From assembly GCA_014297435.1 (NCBI GenBank), contig JACOQA010000006.1, positions 1 through 34,590 on the forward strand: a stretch of DNA of 34,590 nt, written 5' to 3'. The notes under the pieces were generated by a model. That model ran no database searches. It worked only from the letters and a program-made list of their open reading frames with translations, and had not been told where the DNA came from. The stretch's first letter is position 1, and each line of letters begins with the position of its first letter. Positions 15,792-26,609 of this stretch are shown one piece after another. The stretch is from Candidatus Nanohaloarchaea archaeon. GTDB lineage: Archaea > Nanohalarchaeota > Nanosalinia > Nanosalinales > Nanosalinaceae. A program made the position numbers and the translations under genes.

Positions 15792-18707
15792 ATGACTGAA
15801 ACAAAACAGAAGACTTCGTTCAAGCTACCAGTAAAAAGAGTAACAGGCGACACTGTCGAGGAGAGACTCACAGAAAACGCCTATCAGAGAATTCTTCCAT
15901 CCAGATACCTCCTGAAAAACGAGAAGGGAGAGAATATCGAGGAACCGGAAGAACTTTTCGAGAGAGTAGCGAAGAACGTTGCGCAGCCCGATAAAGAATA
16001 CGATGACGTGGATTTCGAGGAGAGCTGGCAGGAGTTCTTCGACCTGATGAGTAATCTGGCGTTCATGCCTAACAGTCCTACACTGATGAACGCAGGAGCA
16101 GACCTCCAGCAGCTTTCCGCATGCTTCGTAGTCCACCCGGAAGACGACATGGACTCAATCTTCTCGAAAGTTCACGACGCAGCCAAGATCTTCCAGTCAG
16201 GAGGAGGCATGGGTTACCCGTTCCACCTCATGAGACCAAAAGGAGACATCGTCTCAAGTACTGGAGGAGTCAGCTCCGGTCCTATGAGCTTCCAGCAGGT
16301 GTTCGACACCATGTGCGGAACGATCAAGCAGGGCGGAAAACGTAGAGGAGCCCAGATGGGAATCATGAAAGTCGACCACCCTGACATCCTCAGATTTGTA
16401 ACAGCTAAGAGAAAGGAAGGAAACCTTTCGAACTTCAACATCTCCGTAGGAATCACAGAGGAGTTCATGGAAGCTGTCAAGAACGACGAGGAGTACACAC
16501 TAGTCAATCCAAGAACTGAAGAGCCTTACAGGGTAAAGGAGATGACAGCCGAGTTCTACAACTCGGACGAAGAATGGTACCCTGAAGCAGCAGGTTCAGA
16601 CCAAGGTAAAGACGACAACTTCTGGAGAGACTTCGCCTCCACTTTCGGAGAAGAAGTACAGCAGTACGATATTGACCTAGAAGTCGGTGACAAGATGACA
16701 CTTCCCGCAAGATTTATCTGGGAAACCTTGATTGACGGCGCATGGAGAAACGGAGAGCCAGGACTCTTCATGTACGACGAAGCCAACGACATGCACTCCT
16801 TCGATACAGACAAGCATCCTGAGCACACAATCGAGGCCACAAACCCTTGTGGAGAACAACCTCTTGAAAACTATGAGGCATGCAACCTCGGACACATCAA
16901 CCTTTCCGTACTTGTGGACGACAAAGGAGAGGGAGAAGCTCTTACATTTGCGGAGTGGAAGCAGAGAAACGGCGACAAGTACGATCTCTCGACACAGGAA
17001 GGACTTAACCAGGCTATGCAGGACTACATCCCTGAAGCCATGGACATGGAACGTTTCGAGTACACCGCAAAAACGGGAATGAGGTTCCTCGATAACGTTG
17101 TAACCATGTCAGACTTCCCATTAGAAGAGATCGAGGACACAGTTACGGACTTGAGAAAGGTTGGACTTGGTTTGATGGGCTTCGCACAGATGCTTGTCCA
17201 GCTAGGAGTCCGTTACGGTTCTGACGAGTCTGTTGCCGCAGCCAAGGAAATCCAGAGATTGATCACACGTTACTCGATCGAAGAATCCAACAGACTTGCG
17301 GATGTAAGAGGAGAGTTCCCTGAATGGGAGAAATCCAAGTGGGCGAATCCAACAGAACATGAGGAATGGTTCAGAGATTACACAGGAGGACTCGATCCTG
17401 AAGACTTCGAGGACGGACTTAAGATGAGAAACCACAACACAACCACGATCGCACCTACCGGAACAACTTCCATGATCGGGAACACTTCCGGAGGATGTGA
17501 GCCGATCTACAGCTTGGCTTACTTCAAGAACGTTGCGAAGGACATCCAGGGAGAGGACATGCTCGTAGAGTTCGACGACTACTTCATCCGTGCCTTGGAA
17601 GCCAACAATGTAGATGTAGAAAAGGTCAAAGAAGCTGCGCAGGAGAAGATGGAGAACAACGAATGGGAAGGCGTAGAAAGTATTCCTGACGAAGTTCTTC
17701 CTGCACACGTTAAAGAGATCTTTGCGACCGCTGACCAGGTCACACCTGAGGAACACATCGATATCCAGGCAGCGTTCCAGGAACACAACCACTCAGGAAT
17801 CTCGAAGACCTGCAACTTCCCTAACGAAGCCTCGAAGGACGATGTAAGAGAGGCTTACATGCGTGCTTATGACAAAGGTGTCAAAGGCATGACAGTCTAC
17901 AGGGACGGAACAAGAGACACACAGGTCATGCAGACCAACAAAGAAAACACGTTGACCGATATGGACAAGGTCGACATGCTCTCAGAGATCGTCGAAGAGT
18001 TCGGAGGAGCCAAAGAACTTCTCGAATCCAACGAGTTCGAAGAAGTAGTCAGTCAGACAGGTCTCCAGATCCAGGACGAAGACACTGAAGATCTTTCACA
18101 GGAAGTTACGCAGGAAGGTGTAGAAGCTGAATCAAGCGAGGAAGGCGGCCACACCTCGATGGGATCAAACGAGAAGGTCAAGGAAAGGCCTAAGATCGCG
18201 ACAGGTACCACTCAAGAAATTGAGACTGCTTACGGCGACCTGTTTGTGACTATCAACAACTCGAAGACCAACGGACCGATCGAAGTATTCGCAAGGGTTG
18301 GCAAAGGCGGAGGCTACACACAGTCCTTCACCGAAGCACTTGGAAGAACAATCAGCCTTTCACTTAGATCCGGTGCCGACGCGGAAGAAGTCATCAAGCA
18401 GCTGGACGATATCCGTTCGCCGCAGATTTCCTGGGACCAGGGAGAGCAGATTCACTCCGTGCCTGACGCTATTGCGGAAGCGATGAAACGTCACGTCCAA
18501 GGACATGGAGGGTCGCAGCAGACAGTTGACTCGTTCGATGAAGAAACAGAGTCGAAGACCCAGACCAAGACCGAGCAAGAAGAGAAAGCTGACGCCGCAA
18601 AAATTGTCCAGGACGGCGGAAACCCTGAATGCCCGGAATGCGGAGGCATGCTTGTCCTGCAGGAAGGCTGCAACAAGTGCCCTGATTGTGGGTACTCGAA
18701 ATGTTGA
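15792..18707 (+). CDS. nrdJ: Adenosylcobalamin-dependent (class II) ribonucleotide reductase
   Basis: 971 residues. The active site is visible: C111 (SACFVV), N351/C353/E355 in NPCGEQPL, and C364 eleven residues later, the spacing of class II NrdJ. Further motifs: [19 protein letters not shown], and [13 protein letters not shown] near 700. No N-terminal ATP-cone is seen. The C-terminal part holds a TSCPD-type domain (about 800-900), an acidic linker and a zinc-ribbon tail with CPEC and CPDC pairs and a final Cys, used to re-reduce the active site. It makes deoxynucleotides using B12. An AAAAGGTG site precedes the ATG. Confidence 0.96.
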
Positions 18708-18711
18708 ATAA

Positions 18712-18741
18712 GGGGTCAACACCCCATTTCTATTATTTTTT
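18712..18741 (+). terminator. Hairpin plus T-tract after nrdJ
   Basis: GGGGT and ACCCC form a five-base stem around CAAC immediately after the nrdJ stop, followed by a T-rich run to 18741. The T-tract is the main archaeal termination signal; the stem may help. Confidence 0.6.
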
Positions 18742-18743
18742 AA

Positions 18744-19370
18744 TTAAGAAACAAGAGAACTGAAGAGATTAACAATTTCGTCATTTCTTAACAAAGATTC
18801 TAAACCTTCATCTACATTAGAGTATTGTTCATTAATACCTGAAACACTCTCTAAACTACCTTTCCATAGTACCGTAGTAAAGAACCCTTTCCTATGGCCT
18901 TTCCTATCTAAAAGATAGTTTTCATTAATAATTAAATGTTGGTTCTCGTTGACTACATCACCAATTTTTATCTCCACCTTTGAACCCTTATGCCTTTGTT
19001 CTATGCGATTCTTGATTGAGTTGTTAAATTCCATTAAACTAGTTTTGTGATCAGAAACGGATTCTTCTAGATTAACGTCTGTATCAGCCATCAAAATTAT
19101 CTTTTCAACTCTATTCATTAGGGTCGGCACAAAATGCGGTACTACTTTTTTCAAGTTAGATTTTCCCCCTTCTGCTTTCACTAGCACTTCAACATCAGGA
19201 TTTCCAACAAGATCCCTTATTTTGTCAGATTGTTGATTTTTAAGCCTACTGTGTTTTAAACATTGGCCATCGAAAGTCTGAGGAGTTGAAATTGTATTGA
19301 CTTTCTCACATAGTTTCTCAAAGAACTTCAATTCATTTTTGCCTTCACAAAATATCATGATTCCCATCAT
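18744..19370 (-). CDS. Small TOPRIM-like protein partnered with the ATPase
   Basis: 208 residues. FCEGKNELKFF near the N terminus (E9-G10) and IILMADTDVN (D96, D98) are the Glu and DxD motifs of a TOPRIM domain in the DUF4276/DUF3226-like arrangement, the usual nickase partner of OLD-type ATPases. Metal-dependent nucleic-acid cleavage is expected. The start overlaps the stop of the ATPase gene by four bases, so the products are likely made together. The gene is visibly AT-rich relative to nrdJ, as is its partner. It converges on nrdJ. Confidence 0.75.
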   Translation of the reverse strand: MMGIMIFCEGKNELKFFEKLCEKVNTISTPQTFDGQCLKHSRLKNQQSDKIRDLVGNPDVEVLVKAEGGKSNLKKVVPHFVPTLMNRVEKIILMADTDVNLEESVSDHKTSLMEFNNSIKNRIEQRHKGSKVEIKIGDVVNENQHLIINENYLLDRKGHRKGFFTTVLWKGSLESVSGINEQYSNVDEGLESLLRNDEIVNLFSSLVS

Positions 19371-20623
19371 AAACCCCTTAGGTCAATCTGGAGATCTTTC
19401 AGATGCTCAGTAGCCCCAACATAATCAAATTCTTCAACAAATCCTCCTGTCTTAAACTGGAATAATCTTAATTCTTCTTTCAGAAATTCTTTCTCTTCTT
19501 CGTTAAAGTGATCAGCAAAGAATTCATTAATAAAGTCATTATCATGGGTCGTGATAAATAATTGAATATCTTCCTCCTTGGATATTTTAACTAAGAAAGA
19601 GACCAATTCCCTGATATAACCAGGATGCATGTGATTTTCGGGCTCCTCGACCAGTACAACTTTATTTTCTTTTTCGTCTATAAGCCGCCAAAGAAATCCC
19701 ACTATCGATTTGAAACCATCTCCCATGAATTCAAAGGGTATCTGATATTTTTGACCATCCTCTTTGAAGACTAAGCTATCCAAATCAAAGGTTTTCAAAT
19801 TGTCCAAAATCCCATTCTCTTTAATATAGTCTCCAATATCATCAATTTTAACTGCGTTATCCTCTTCGTCCTTTTCTAAGCCTACTCTGTCAAATTTTGC
19901 AGATCTTATAAATTTGAGATTCTCTCGGGTTGCGGGTTTTGATAGAAAACCGCTGCGATTGTGAGGATGTCGAAACACGAAATCTCTGATAAGATGGTTC
20001 TTCACGATCTCCTCATATTCATCTAATCTCTCGTTATCAAGGATATCTTTTCTTATTTCTTCTCTATCTCTAAATAAAGGTTGTAAAGCTCCAATATTAT
20101 AGAAAATATGCGACCTATCATTTACCTTGACTACCAAAAAATTATCCTGTATCTTAGATTCTTGGATTTCTGTTATCCTCTCTTGAATAACATCTTCAAA
20201 TGCTTCTTCTATAGAATCAAGAACGTCTTTTACTTTAAACTCATAATCAGCATCCAAATTATCTCTTAAGTCATTTAATCTAACTTCAAGTTGATTTCTA
20301 TGAAATAGAGATTTTTTAGAAGCCATCATTAAGTTATCTTTGGCTTCTTTCTTATCAATATATTTTAAAATAATCTCTTCAGTTTCATCATCAATTTGTC
20401 CAGTTAAAGTAGCTTTATTATAGTCTCTATTAATTAGAGAATCAATATTCCTACTGTAACCCGATATTCTTGTAGGGCGGTATAGAAGTTCCAAAGATTG
20501 CAGGAAAGAGGTTTTTCCAGTGTTGTTGCGGCCAGTAATAAGGTTAAAACGGCCGGGTTCTAACTCCAAGTCCTCTACTCCCTTATAACCTATGACGCTC
20601 ACCTTATTGATTTTATCTGACAT
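19367..20623 (-). CDS. OLD/AAA_15-type ABC-like ATPase
   Basis: 418 residues. N terminus 'INKVSVIGYKGVEDLELEPG' is the usual start of RecF/OLD-like ATPases. Walker A is GRNNTGKTS (31-39); the signature-like region is FMGDGFKSIVGFLWRL; Walker B is VVLVEEPENHMHP (about 322-334, E326/E327); the switch His is in ITTHDNDF. A helical insertion (about 75-240) separates the halves. Partnered ATPase plus TOPRIM pairs occur in several anti-phage systems (for example PARIS, AbiL and Gabija-related). Promoter contains a 25-base palindrome. AT-rich, suggesting acquisition by transfer. Confidence 0.88.
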   Translation of the reverse strand: MSDKINKVSVIGYKGVEDLELEPGRFNLITGRNNTGKTSFLQSLELLYRPTRISGYSRNIDSLINRDYNKATLTGQIDDETEEIILKYIDKKEAKDNLMMASKKSLFHRNQLEVRLNDLRDNLDADYEFKVKDVLDSIEEAFEDVIQERITEIQESKIQDNFLVVKVNDRSHIFYNIGALQPLFRDREEIRKDILDNERLDEYEEIVKNHLIRDFVFRHPHNRSGFLSKPATRENLKFIRSAKFDRVGLEKDEEDNAVKIDDIGDYIKENGILDNLKTFDLDSLVFKEDGQKYQIPFEFMGDGFKSIVGFLWRLIDEKENKVVLVEEPENHMHPGYIRELVSFLVKISKEEDIQLFITTHDNDFINEFFADHFNEEEKEFLKEELRLFQFKTGGFVEEFDYVGATEHLKDLQIDLRGL

Positions 20624-20648
20624 ATATTGGTACTAGTTATTTCCAAAC

Positions 20649-20673
20649 AATTAAAAGATAGTGCGTTTTAATT
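20649..20673 (-). promoter_or_regulatory. Palindrome at the promoter of the ATPase-TOPRIM operon
   Basis: Perfect eight-base arms AATTAAAA and TTTTAATT are separated by nine bases. The proximal arm doubles as the TATA element, 26-33 bases before the ATPase ATG at 20623. It may be an operator; being AT-rich it could also arise by chance. Confidence 0.45.
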
Positions 20674-20739
20674 AACTACTCGAACATAAGTAATTTAATA
20701 TCCGCTCCTAATTTAACTCTTAGTTATACTTCTCTACAC

Positions 20740-21447
20740 ATGGGGGATTGGGGAGAAGAATTCAACGCACTTCTAAACGGCGAAGAACCAGAAATCAGAA
20801 CTCCAGGAGATATATCCAAAGTTCTTGACCGCGAAAACAGTTACTGGCATCCTACACAGGTAAGAAACGTGGAAAGACAGGAAACAATCGACAGAGAGTA
20901 CGCTTCAAGTATGAACAAAGCAATAGCGACCGCTTATGAACAGCATTTTGCGGACGATTATCAGTCAGAGAAAGCTGACCGGGGGCACATGGATGTAAGA
21001 CTTACTTTTACTCCGAAAGCCCAAAACTGGTCTGTACAGGTAAAATCATGTAACTACTTCCGGAAAGCCCAAGACAGTGTCAGAACAGGATCTTTCACTT
21101 TCAGAAAGGATGACTATCAAAAGATGGAGGAGAAATCATTTATCCAGTTTTACGTTGGTCAGACATTTTTCGACGATGAAAGGGATTTTGAGGGCGAAGT
21201 GATCCAAGTAGTAAACGATGAAGGACGTGAAGCGTATGTTGAGAAAGTGGGTCAGATGTTGGTTCCTAAGCATGTTTTCGACCAGCACTTTGAACCGGAT
21301 TGGAACCGTAGCGGAACCTGGAATCTGAAGTGGACAGAGGTGTTCGGAGAGGTTCCTGCAGAGAGTCCTATCTTTGGTTTTACATTTGAAAATTACTCGG
21401 AAATTAACAACGAAGACCTGTACAAGCTCTCCGATTTCAAAGCTTGA
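20740..21447 (+). CDS. Putative PD-(D/E)XK-like nuclease (QxK variant), unknown family
   Basis: 235 residues, no named family. Residues 60-102 look like the core of a PD-(D/E)XK fold: helix with E67 (IATAYEQHF), strand ending MDVRLTF (D85), then WSVQVKS with Q100 and K102, the QxK variant seen in Mrr-type enzymes. The following sequence is beta-rich with many aromatic residues. A TTTAAC element is at about -26 of the ATG, divergent from the ATPase operon. It may act with the neighbouring genes. Motif evidence only; catalysis unproven. Confidence 0.55.
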   Translation: MGDWGEEFNALLNGEEPEIRTPGDISKVLDRENSYWHPTQVRNVERQETIDREYASSMNKAIATAYEQHFADDYQSEKADRGHMDVRLTFTPKAQNWSVQVKSCNYFRKAQDSVRTGSFTFRKDDYQKMEEKSFIQFYVGQTFFDDERDFEGEVIQVVNDEGREAYVEKVGQMLVPKHVFDQHFEPDWNRSGTWNLKWTEVFGEVPAESPIFGFTFENYSEINNEDLYKLSDFKA

Positions 21448-21510
21448 TAATTCCTTCTTTATGGTACAGAGCCCTTTAAAAGGGAAAGGATTATCTAACG
21501 TGGCGACCGC

Positions 21511-21518
21511 TTAATAAG
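21511..21518 (+). promoter_or_regulatory. TATA box of the 362-residue gene
   Basis: TTAATAAG is centred about 27 bases before the ATG at 21542, which suggests a leaderless transcript and supports that start. Confidence 0.5.
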
Positions 21519-21541
21519 CTTTTACCCATAAGTTACAACAC

Positions 21542-22630
21542 ATGTCTGGGCTTGAAGTCGTAGAGCAAATGCTGGGAGAGGAAAAAGCGGAGAACCTAAA
21601 GGAAGCAAGAAAGCATCATGCCGACATAACTGAGGAGGAGAGAAAAAGAATTAGAAACACAAACAGGGCTCTAGAATATACAACTGAAACAATTGAAGAC
21701 CCTGAAAGAGATTTTGAGATATCGACCGCGATGATTCTATGGGGTGGTAATACGCCTGAAGAGCTTTCATCGCTCTTCTCGAGGGAGAGAGTCGTTGATG
21801 CGATGGTAAATGACATGCAAGAAGTACGTGAAGGAAACTACAATAAAGTTGATTGGAAAGGATCAGAGCTTCTAGAAAGCTTCAGGCATCATGTCACAAC
21901 CAACAATCATCCTGCTAACAAGATGATAGATATTGAAGATGAGAACGATTACGATTCCAATCTTTCATCCTTGAGGGAAGATATAAAGAGTTGGTTCAAA
22001 GAAACAAGAGAGAACTTCCATAAGATGCATAATGAGAATGGACTCCTGCGAGATTTCGACCCTAAAAATATCGGAGACAGACCAGAGATGAGAGAGACGG
22101 CGAAAGAAGCCTACGATTCTAGAGAACCAGAGGTCCCTGAAGTCTCTAAACCAGTTGCAACTGAAATACTAAAATTCCTTGTAGAAGATCGCATCTACCT
22201 TTCACCTCCTGAAGAGAATTCTAAGGCTGTTAGAGAAGATGAAAAAAGAGAAAAAACGTTTGAAACCAAACACTCAAGAATAGACTGGGATGGATTCAAA
22301 GAGAAGTATAGCTCAGTTCCCGGAGACGAAATGAGAGAACTATATGAGATTGCAGCCAAGTACCAGGACGAGGACGGAATTATCGACTCCGATCTACTTG
22401 GAAAAATAACAGCAGACATCAACGGAATGGACGTAAAATATGATGCCGATGAGAAAGATCTAGCCGAGAACTTCGGAGAACTGAAGAGAGCTGTCTCCCA
22501 GGTAGAAGATCTTGACTATGGTTTGCCTGTAGGCGGAAAGGAAAGAGAGCTTGAGGCATTAGCAAGAACCATTCAGAACGTTCAGGAATTTTACGAGAAA
22601 GAAACCTACAAAATCAAGCGAGAAGCCTAG
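21542..22630 (+). CDS. Unknown helical acidic protein between two nuclease-like genes
   Basis: 362 residues, almost entirely charged and predicted helical, with no Walker, zinc or membrane motifs visible. Segments such as LKEARKHHADITEEERKRIR (19-38) and the C-terminal 310-360 could form coiled coils. There are conserved-looking aromatic spots ('ILWGGNTPEELSSLFSRE', 'WKGSELLESFRHHV'). No family recognised. It has its own TATA box and lies between the genes at 20740 and 22692, on the same strand. Confidence 0.6.
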   Translation: MSGLEVVEQMLGEEKAENLKEARKHHADITEEERKRIRNTNRALEYTTETIEDPERDFEISTAMILWGGNTPEELSSLFSRERVVDAMVNDMQEVREGNYNKVDWKGSELLESFRHHVTTNNHPANKMIDIEDENDYDSNLSSLREDIKSWFKETRENFHKMHNENGLLRDFDPKNIGDRPEMRETAKEAYDSREPEVPEVSKPVATEILKFLVEDRIYLSPPEENSKAVREDEKREKTFETKHSRIDWDGFKEKYSSVPGDEMRELYEIAAKYQDEDGIIDSDLLGKITADINGMDVKYDADEKDLAENFGELKRAVSQVEDLDYGLPVGGKERELEALARTIQNVQEFYEKETYKIKREA

Positions 22631-22691
22631 CTATTTTTCTCCACAAACTTTAGTATTTTTATCACAATTATAGCTCAGGGGGAAACTATTT

Positions 22692-23474
22692 TTGTTAGTA
22701 AACAGGAATTCTGAAGATTCTGAAAATCTGATATACGCCGCTCTCAAAGCTCTAGGCGGAGAACCTAGAAGCTATCATCCACGTTTCTACGTAAATGAGT
22801 GGGCAGAAGCAGCACACGATCCTCTGATAGAACATCCTGAAGACGTTAAAGAGGACTGGTACAGACCTAACCTCGAACCCTTTACACATGATATCAATGA
22901 AGCACATGAAAACTACCTCGCTGAGAATTTGCATATGGAGAGAATGAATGGACAGGGAGCTTACAGATCAGATGAATTGGAAGGGGAAGAACTTAACCAA
23001 GCTAAGGAAGTCGATCTAGTTGTAACCGAGGGACCTTTCAAAGATACTTTGGTTCAGGCTAAATGCGCTGCATTAAGAGTCACGAGAGGTGACAGACCGG
23101 CTGGAGGTCACAAGAGTACTCCTGGAGGAATCTACATGAGAGACAACCTTCCTGATCTGAGAGATGACTGGGATCAAGATGCATTACTTTATGTGTCAAT
23201 ACATTATCCTAGAACCGATTTTGAAGATGATTTACCTGTTCCGACTGTTCCCGTTGTTGAAAAAGAGGACGAAAGGCTGGACGACAGCAAGCTTGAAACA
23301 GCGTATGTCGGAGACTTTATCATGCCGGTCAAAAGGGTTCTTGAAGAAGTTGAGTTCTATCCAAGCGGTTACCGTAACTGGGAGTGGCCGGACGCTTTAG
23401 GAGAAATACCTGAACCAGATTGCCTAGTTGATAGATGGCTTAAAGATTCCTTTATTTCTGAGAATCTTCCTTGA
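22692..23474 (+). CDS. Putative Mrr-like PD-(D/E)XK nuclease, unknown family
   Basis: 260 residues starting at TTG; an in-frame stop at 22671 and a strong AGGGGG site at 22677-22682 leave TTG as the only reasonable start. E106-V-D108 followed exactly 13 residues later by Q122-A-K124 gives D-x13-QAK, the arrangement of Mrr-type restriction endonucleases. The strand before QAK (KDTLV) and following helix fit the fold. The N-terminal 80 residues and the Trp/Pro-rich C terminus are unlike known Mrr proteins. No methyltransferase is adjacent. Confidence 0.58.
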   Translation: MLVNRNSEDSENLIYAALKALGGEPRSYHPRFYVNEWAEAAHDPLIEHPEDVKEDWYRPNLEPFTHDINEAHENYLAENLHMERMNGQGAYRSDELEGEELNQAKEVDLVVTEGPFKDTLVQAKCAALRVTRGDRPAGGHKSTPGGIYMRDNLPDLRDDWDQDALLYVSIHYPRTDFEDDLPVPTVPVVEKEDERLDDSKLETAYVGDFIMPVKRVLEEVEFYPSGYRNWEWPDALGEIPEPDCLVDRWLKDSFISENLP

Positions 23475-23670
23475 TGCCAGAAAAAGGGGACTTTTGCTTA
23501 AGTGGTCCTGAGACATAGAATTGATTCTTTCCAAAACATTGTAGTTTTTAGATCCATTGAGTTCTCTCTGCTCTCCGATTTAACGTTGTACAATGCATCT
23601 CTATCAAAACAGTATTGGTTAAAAGCCTTCAGCTCTACAGATAACAGGTCGAGAGGTTAAACCTGGAACT

Positions 23671-24213
23671 ATGGTAATGATTAAAGGAAATCATACGGTA
23701 GAGGATCTGATCAGAGCTTCAAGAATCGATGAAGTTGATGCGCCTAAAGGTTACTCTTGGAGAGCTCTTGATCGTATAGAGGAAGAAAGTGAAGGATTGG
23801 ATAGTATCTCTGAACTGAACGATCAGCACCCCGAAAGGATGAAGGACGGTTCGGAAATAGTCTTAAGCATGGAGGAATACCTTGAAGAACTTCCGGACTA
23901 TGCGAGTTGGCAGCCTGAAAACATCGATTCTTACAGAGCGGAGAGAACTGTTAACTATGATTTAATCTTGTCAGTAGGTCCTGATCACGAGAGTTTTAGG
24001 AAGGTTCTGAAAGATGAAGGGTACAGACCTTTTTGCGATTCGCAGTGGGAAAGATTAACCTTGAATCTTTTGAGCATAGCAGATTCAGAGGCAGCGGATA
24101 GAAAGGCGTGGGAAAACGCCAGCCAAGAACTTTCAGGTCATAAGTGGGAAATCAAAGGTGTTGTCGATAGATGGGTTTACGAAGATATAATTGATGATCC
24201 GTCGGATTACTGA
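23671..24213 (+). CDS. Hypothetical acidic protein, last gene of the cluster
   Basis: 180 residues, no recognised family; soluble, Trp-rich towards the end. An AGAGGT ribosome site lies before the ATG at 23671 (a second ATG two codons later is possible). It follows the Mrr-like gene by 196 bases, a stretch where I see no gene, RNA or strong repeat. Same direction as the previous three genes, so it may belong to the same accessory module, but the gap suggests its own promoter. Confidence 0.58.
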   Translation: MVMIKGNHTVEDLIRASRIDEVDAPKGYSWRALDRIEEESEGLDSISELNDQHPERMKDGSEIVLSMEEYLEELPDYASWQPENIDSYRAERTVNYDLILSVGPDHESFRKVLKDEGYRPFCDSQWERLTLNLLSIADSEAADRKAWENASQELSGHKWEIKGVVDRWVYEDIIDDPSDY

Positions 24214-24407
24214 GGTTCTTTCTCTTTTTCGACCCGCTTATCTTTTCTAAGCCATATTCTACGGAACCCTATTGAAAAACCAATTGAAATCAGTTAGATG
24301 AAGGCTCCTGTAGATAGAAAGACCTTCGGTATAAGCTGAATCTGGTAATAAATCTGTTGGAGAGTGCTGATCGTCAGAGTAGTTGAAGAAGAAAATTAAA
24401 AGAGTTT

Positions 24408-24536
24408 TTAGGCGCTTATGCCCGATGCCCCGAGACAGCTCCGGTGTATATAGCCATCAGCAGTTGTAACGAAGCTGTGACTTGATTTGACACGTTTACC
24501 GCAGAAAATGCAGTTGCCGTAGCTGTTCGAGGACAT
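24408..24536 (-). CDS. 42-residue zinc-finger microprotein
   Basis: A short ORF starting MSSNSYGNCIFCGKRVKSSH. It contains C9-x2-C12 with the zinc-knuckle turn CIFCGK, then H31-x2-C34 (YIHRSCL), a complete C2HC set for one zinc ion in a treble-clef or LIM-like order. A GAGGTG ribosome site is placed about ten bases before the ATG, and a stop lies just upstream in frame, so the start is well defined. Small one-zinc proteins of unknown role are common in haloarchaea. It accounts for part of an otherwise gene-free stretch; 24214-24407 and 24537-24711 hold nothing I can identify. Confidence 0.65.
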   Translation of the reverse strand: MSSNSYGNCIFCGKRVKSSHSFVTTADGYIHRSCLGASGISA

Positions 24537-24711
24537 AACTTGGACACCTCATATACCAAAAGAGATTGACAGTTGAAAAATGTTTGACAGATCGAAAGGT
24601 TTCAATCGAACATTATGTATAGGCACTAACGTTAAGTGAAGAGATAGGTGAAAGAATTGAAAACGGTTAACATAATTTAAAGCTGAGGTTAGACAGTTTT
24701 TACAGTAAGTA

Positions 24712-24840
24712 GGGGTCGTAGCTCAACTTGGGAGAGCGTCCGCCTCCAGAAATAGTTCTGGAGGGATGAGGCATTCAGCCAATGATTAACCCTTTTTCGG
24801 AGATAGCGGAAGGTTGCGGGTTCAAATCCCTCCGACCCCA
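24712..24840 (+). tRNA. tRNA-Trp (anticodon CCA) with a 55-base intron
   Basis: Acceptor GGGGTCG pairs with CGACCCC (discriminator A at 24840). The D arm is GCTC/GAGC. The anticodon stem TCCGC (24739-24743) pairs with GCGGA (24806-24810). The loop begins CTCCAG, giving CCA at 24746-24748. The intron runs from about 24750 to 24804, after canonical position 37, where archaeal introns usually sit. The exon segment CTCCAGAA pairs perfectly with TTCTGGAG inside the intron, as expected of a pre-tRNA fold around the splice site. The T stem GCGGG/CCCTC has one C-U mismatch. Confidence 0.92.
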
Positions 24841-26177: not shown

Positions 26178-26609
26178 TCAGTTTGAACCGGTGAAGAATA
26201 TCCTGTCGAGAGCTGCATCTACAAACTTCTCCTCTTTATCCTCAAAAAGAGGTGCGGCATCCTCCACCGCCATCCTTCCTCCAGATGTAAGTTGTTTTCC
26301 GAACTCTTTACGTGCCGAACTCAACACATCGACTTTACCAGTTAGATGCTGTCTGATTTCACGATTTTGTTCTTTACCGTGGGAATCAAAATCAGTTAGA
26401 ATAGCAACTCTATCGCTTCCTCTTTCTACATCTTCCGCCAGGTCTTCATGGGTTCTTTCGGCTGATTCAAAGATCTTTCCTTCGAATCCCAGCATCCTCA
26501 TCACTCTTCTATCGGAGAAACCTTCTACAATTATAGAGTCAACGTCTCTGTCGAGTTTTTCCACCTCTTTTTCCAGACGGTTTCTTTCCTTGAACTTCTC
26601 TACATCCAT
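26178..26609 (-). CDS. Small TOPRIM-domain protein
   Basis: 143 residues. SIIVEGFSDRRVMRMLG (E29) and AILTDFDSHGKE (D73, D75) are the TOPRIM Glu and DxD motifs, similar to the archaeal stand-alone TOPRIM proteins related to RNase M5 and DnaG. An N-terminal basic helix (residues 1-20) precedes the domain. A TATAAATA-type element about 30 bases upstream of the ATG lies between this gene and the divergent pcm. Unrelated in sequence to the TOPRIM protein at 18744. Confidence 0.85.
   Translation of the reverse strand: MDVEKFKERNRLEKEVEKLDRDVDSIIVEGFSDRRVMRMLGFEGKIFESAERTHEDLAEDVERGSDRVAILTDFDSHGKEQNREIRQHLTGKVDVLSSARKEFGKQLTSGGRMAVEDAAPLFEDKEEKFVDAALDRIFFTGSN

Follow-up and report, generated by a model that had tools for sequence, protein, structure and literature searches.

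Six genes lying between an nrdJ-type ribonucleotide reductase gene and a tRNA-Trp gene in the DNA of a Candidatus Nanohaloarchaea archaeon raise the question of whether they constitute one accessory module or two neighbouring ones. They are found in a stretch of 34,590 nucleotides (hereafter the window) and comprise an ABC/OLD-type ATPase gene overlapping a gene for a TOPRIM-like protein and, across a divergent intergenic region, four genes on the other strand that we term U1-U4. A preliminary description of the same DNA had suggested that the six might form a single defence-type module, while allowing that two units could have landed side by side. We show here that the pair and U1-U4 are two independent units. 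Our overall reading, to which we assign a probability of about 0.6, is that the interval serves as a site for accessory genes and contains two units with no relation to each other, namely a mobile split OLD-type pair and a lineage-restricted, nuclease-like pair formed by U1 and U3. The features of the locus are as follows:

18744-19370, minus strand: TOPRIM-like partner gene, 208 amino acids (aa); presumed to act as the pair's effector nuclease (E/G/D residues, sub-threshold profiles, alpha/beta model)
19367-20623, minus strand: ABC/OLD-type ATPase gene, 418 aa; presumed sensor and regulator (AAA_21/AAA_15, PADLOC matches, C-terminal DLRG)
20624-20739, no strand: divergent intergenic region between the ATPase gene and U1, 116 bases; junction of the two units, from the coordinates
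20740-21447, plus strand: U1, 235 aa, PD-(D/E)XK-like; one of nine family members in which E, D and QxK are invariant
21542-22630, plus strand: U2, 362 aa; no assigned function, one paralogue in the same genome
22692-23474, plus strand: U3, 260 aa, PD-(D/E)XK-like and paralogous to U1; common family with U1
23671-24213, plus strand: U4, 180 aa; orphan without relatives in the searched genomes and viral contigs
15792-18707, plus strand: nrdJ-type ribonucleotide reductase gene, left flank of the variable interval (Pfam Ribonuc_red_lgC, 5e-131)
24712-24840, plus strand: intron-bearing tRNA-Trp gene, right flank of the variable interval (ARAGORN with introns; Rfam tRNA, 50 bits)

Two separable units at one locus

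The open reading frame coordinates bear out the gene anatomy given in the preliminary description, with its 4-base overlap of the ATPase and TOPRIM-like genes (19367-19370), the 116-base divergent gap and the four same-strand genes beyond it. Because the gaps between U1 and U2, U2 and U3, and U3 and U4 measure 94, 61 and 196 bases, respectively, U1-U4 do not form a compact operon. The adjacency of the six genes and the divergent region shared by them in this genome are what would favour a single module, with U1-U4 acting as effectors of the ATPase-TOPRIM pair. However, the six genes are never together elsewhere: no other genome in which the pair was found has U1-U4 with it, and six relatives have U1/U3 genes but lack the pair. 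The two parts also differ in G+C content at third codon positions (GC3), the pair being compositionally alien in the window, U1, U2 and U4 not being so, and U3 being intermediate. Since the units are separable and differ in composition, we reject the single module, which we regard as extremely unlikely, and favour the other possibility raised in the preliminary description, that two units landed side by side.

The ATPase and its partner form a conserved, mobile pair

Searches with the ATPase alone recovered relatives from Halorussus, Halorubrum, another haloarchaeon, a micrarchaeon, Methanocorpusculum and others, and in the closest of these a TOPRIM-like gene comes next. A search model of the partner was then built from seven pairs (that of the window and six from ATPase relatives or a same-order relative) and run without the ATPase across 394 haloarchaeal genomes, of which it matched 18 (4.6%), two of these being seeds. 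All 22 partner matches outside the model-building set sit directly after an orthologous ATPase gene; in one of them the start of the partner appears to be displaced solely through a premature stop in the gene. The two proteins also have correlated distance matrices (r=0.85). What the sequences show directly is the gene anatomy, the conserved pairing and the conserved residues of the ATPase and of the E/DxD pattern in the partner.

The distribution of the pair is patchy: it is scattered in archaea beyond the haloarchaea as well, two genomes carry three or four copies, and it is absent from all 18 other genomes of the window's own family. At the haloarchaeal loci the GC of the pair averages 47%, while the 3 kb on its flanks reach 63% and regions 200 kb off reach 66%; the pair falls below its flanks at 20 of 20 loci and below the distant regions at 18 of 18. 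In the window, its GC is 34% versus 44-45% on either side, and its GC3 is 3.2-3.4 standard deviations low. These patterns of distribution and composition show the pair to be mobile. Searches of viral, plasmid and phage sequences for the pair yielded weak generic ATPase matches and nothing more, and no helicase recurs beside it at the compared loci. A cofactor-biosynthesis gene, cofC, lies upstream of the pair in four haloarchaea, including the closest relatives, and was considered as a third partner; we set it aside as a mark of a shared insertion site. These four related genomes (L008, L142, L143 and L144) might have acquired the pair by repeated insertion at one site or have inherited a single insertion.

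The ATPase was described earlier as an AAA_15/OLD-type protein, and this assignment stands: it matches AAA_21 (1.3e-23) and AAA_15 (4.9e-20) in Pfam, and AriA (1.9e-27), PDC-M38A (6.5e-25) and AbiLi (8.2e-24) in PADLOC, where the AriA model is close to generic AAA_21. Among chains of solved structures it matches OLD, PtuA, Rad50, GajA and, weakly, AriA. The Walker A and Walker B motifs and a C-terminal DLRG tail are invariant across 27 distinct relatives of the pair. We found no description of this tail in the literature, in a search that could not target a four-letter motif, so that the evidence for it as a novel feature is weak. In the ATPase tree the window sequence clusters with the haloarchaeal ones rather than with those of the other DPANN relatives, on a long branch and with less than full support (93/98). 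An Rfam match to SNORD112 within the ATPase gene scores under the gathering threshold and was dismissed as chance.

The TOPRIM identity of the partner proved weaker than had been claimed. Its profile matches, DUF3226 (2.7e-5) and RloB (0.0018), fall under the curated cut-offs, whereas its relatives do preserve the residue pattern of the TOPRIM domain, namely the Glu of motif I and the DxD of motif II: E9, G10 and D96 are invariant in all 27 distinct relatives and D98 is conserved in 26. The small protein 1t6t can be aligned across both motifs, with an E-value of only 0.11; in a profile comparison with the TOPRIM domain of a fused OLD protein motif I alone aligns. The structure model (predicted local distance difference test, pLDDT, 81) is of the alpha/beta type with alternating strands and helices, and a Foldseek search with it returned no significant fold match. 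We therefore call the partner TOPRIM-like with a serious caveat, as the designation draws on acidic residues that never vary, on profile matches below threshold and on a predicted structure whose fold search was uninformative. A premature stop interrupts the partner gene in two of the 27 cases, at different positions and with an intact ATPase gene beside each. The stop-bearing genes at L130 and L138 (also L151 and L156) are haloarchaeal copies with common flanking genes. The window also encodes a separate small TOPRIM-like protein (26178-26609, minus strand; 143 aa; Pfam Toprim, 0.0032), which gave no useful alignment with the partner family in a profile comparison and appears to be unrelated to it.

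U1 and U3 belong to a phylum-restricted nuclease-like family

U1 and U3 match each other in BLAST with an E-value of only 0.033; yet both fall in a single nine-member family and are diverged paralogues. The QxK motifs noted in two of the four genes by the preliminary description are indeed present, as QVK in U1 and QAK in U3, and are accompanied by an upstream E and D: E73, D108, Q122 and K124 (U3 numbering) are invariant in the nine divergent sequences. From this motif the two are probable PD-(D/E)XK nucleases. The E...D...QxK pattern and a compatible order of a helix followed by strands are shared with that superfamily; in contrast, no profile match, sequence-related solved structure or fold match connects them to it, the U3 model being of low confidence (pLDDT 66) and giving no significant Foldseek match.

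As judged from sequence searches, the family is restricted to the phylum: it was found in seven of its 28 genomes, in U1-only, U3-only and U1+U3 states. No member was detected in the 394 haloarchaeal genomes, a negative weakened by the want of a positive control there; neither were relatives of U1 found in the viral contigs or plasmids searched, nor of U3 in the viral contigs or phages. In six relatives, all devoid of the ATPase-TOPRIM pair, the genes occupy the same slot near an ABCE1 gene and an AlaX-like gene, with 17-43% identity to U3. This slot, from ABCE1/Rli1 to the AlaX-like gene (L033-L038), is variable and houses a U1-type gene, a U3-type gene or both; near ABCE1 in the window's own genome (L073) there are other genes instead, including one for a winged-helix protein. 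In one genome (G003) U1 and U3 are adjacent with a four-base overlap (L033 8247-8250), which is the best sign of a partnership between them; in the window U2 intervenes.

The one paralogue of U2 lies in its own genome (G000:C10:125987-126493; E 1e-23; 38% over residues 181-357), and no relatives of U2 were found in the viral contigs searched. That paralogue (L039 7331-8530) adjoins a ROK-family gene. U4 has no relatives in 59 other genomes or in the viral contigs. No profile match of U1-U4 to housekeeping families or to known defence genes was found in Pfam, NCBIfam, PHROGs or PADLOC.

An accessory-gene site between nrdJ and tRNA-Trp

The flanks named earlier, nrdJ and tRNA-Trp, were recovered by Pfam and by ARAGORN and Rfam, respectively, and an nrdJ-type gene is present in 17 of the 19 genomes of the family. 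The source genome is about 1.0 Mb in 15 contigs and its proteins are mostly acidic. In a related genome (G007) the same flanks, nrdJ on one side and tRNA-Trp with its following genes on the other, hold a wholly different interior of about 6 kb with a VRR-NUC gene (L070 2940-9194, compared with 18708-24711 of the window); as both flanks are kept in this genome only, the notion of a hotspot draws on one clean comparison and on single-flank cases. The tRNA-Trp gene of G007 is on the opposite strand relative to that of the window. Elsewhere, a fused OLD protein of 607 aa, with AAA_15 and a VEG...DED TOPRIM-like end, is encoded soon after nrdJ (G009; L068 3465-5288), and a homing-endonuclease-like NUMOD3 protein adjoins nrdJ in G008 (L071 10700-11539). 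A search for a duplication of a tRNA-Trp attachment site near nrdJ revealed no convincing repeat. Taken together, the region is probably an accessory-gene site at which genes come and go, and two units could therefore land there side by side without a functional link. The second unit here is the lineage-restricted pair of U1 and U3, both probable PD-(D/E)XK nucleases, accompanied by U2 and the orphan U4.

Possible functions and alternative explanations

The first unit, a low-GC, mobile, two-gene split OLD-type system, would produce the ATPase and the TOPRIM-like partner from overlapping frames, and a complex of the two proteins is probable. If it works in the manner of AriA-AriB in PARIS, the ATPase would keep the TOPRIM-like protein in check until triggered by a virus or by stress; the partner, then released or activated, would cut tRNA or DNA and arrest the cell. 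We infer complex formation, nuclease activity, trigger, substrate and antiviral role alike from the comparisons made here. The patchy, mobile distribution of the pair is one expected of an antiviral defence system. We consider the pair to be real, to recur in archaea as a mobile split OLD-type system and to make a fair candidate for defence.

Several points weigh against this picture. Neither profiles nor solved structures nor fold searches assign the partner firmly to the TOPRIM proteins, and the case for U1 and U3 as nucleases is that of their motif. As to a location in defence islands, PADLOC models near the pair number 46 (136 proteins) versus 18 in control regions (129 proteins), but these are counts of models rather than genes, many are repeated helicase and Cas12f-like models, and the control regions match defence models too. 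Further, another OLD protein of archaea, Cran1, acts in the cell cycle (PMC12796447), and this lends some plausibility to a housekeeping or cell-cycle role of the pair like that of Cran1 in the Sulfolobales. We deem such a role very unlikely: within its order Cran1 is conserved and passed on vertically, and it has its TOPRIM domain on the same protein, whereas the pair is split, occurs in 4.6% of haloarchaeal genomes, is missing from the other genomes of its family and has an alien composition. The same anatomy and mobility would also suit a toxin-antitoxin or selfish addiction element, in which a TOPRIM toxin is held by the ATPase and the whole is kept for its own persistence; the premature stops in two partner genes beside intact ATPases would be expected if the partner were costly. 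Nevertheless, antitoxins are usually small rather than 400-residue ATPases, and the studied bacterial relatives with the same plan are antiviral (PMC12409363), making this explanation unlikely.

With respect to U1 and U3, a role other than defence is possible, albeit not the likelier outcome: they might be nucleases that process or repair DNA in this archaeal family and evolve fast, their locus being the same in most genomes and a different one in that of the window, to which they would have moved. The common ABCE1/AlaX slot of six divergent copies, and the lack of detected relatives in haloarchaea, viral contigs, plasmids and phages, speak for it; the presence of the family in only seven of 28 genomes, in three different states, is out of keeping with an essential repair gene. 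Returning to the reading of a mobile pair beside an unrelated nuclease-like one, a bolder and rather doubtful extension would have the pair stand for a class of split OLD immunity in archaea, spanning haloarchaea, methanogens and DPANN symbionts, in which the DLRG tail docks the TOPRIM effector and thereby holds or activates it, and which haloarchaeal hosts have in common with the nanosized symbionts that live with them.

The sole archaeal OLD protein characterized in one study is not antiviral (PMC12796447), and restriction-modification and CRISPR are under-represented in DPANN (PMC12988326). As a mobile ATPase-TOPRIM unit of archaea that is always found paired and whose ATPase has an invariant tail, the pair is a compact and testable candidate for archaeal immunity, and one that falls in lineages poor in those two kinds of system. 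U1/U3 adds a nuclease-like family seen so far only in one family of a small archaeal phylum.

Comparison with known systems

The preliminary description regarded the locus as of defence type, citing PARIS, AbiL and Gabija-like pairs. Defence remains plausible by anatomy, mobility and similarity to PADLOC models, but judging by the sequence of the partner protein the pair is not a member of PARIS, AbiL or Gabija. Its ATPase matches AbiLi of the AbiL system, whereas none of the 27 partners matches the AbiLii model, and a single one matches RloB, below the cut-off (0.0019). The fused OLD nucleases, including GajA of Gabija and Cran1, have the same type of ATPase as the pair; they differ in having the TOPRIM domain fused, which is a separate protein in the pair. 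Gabija further combines GajA with the helicase GajB, and the pair lacks a recurring neighbouring helicase.

The closest counterpart is best read as PDC-M38, a PADLOC candidate composed of an ATPase (A) and a partner (B), since both window proteins match its models (M38A strongly, 6.5e-25; M38B weakly and below threshold, 1.6e-5). The PDC-M38B models are also the commonest matches among the 27 partners, although the top single model matches just nine of them, weakly. PDC-M38 is itself an unvalidated candidate system, and no paper describing it was found in the literature. PARIS, a class 4 OLD system of AriA and AriB, resembles the pair in its adjacent but separate ATPase and TOPRIM genes and in the AriA match of the ATPase; its AriB effector model, however, is unmatched by any of the 27 partners at E <= 0.01, and the split (class 4) OLD systems have been reported from bacteria only (PMC12796447). 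In PARIS, AriA senses a phage protein and the activated AriB cleaves host tRNAs (PMC12409363). By analogy, the archaeal pair probably works like PARIS without being a member of it.

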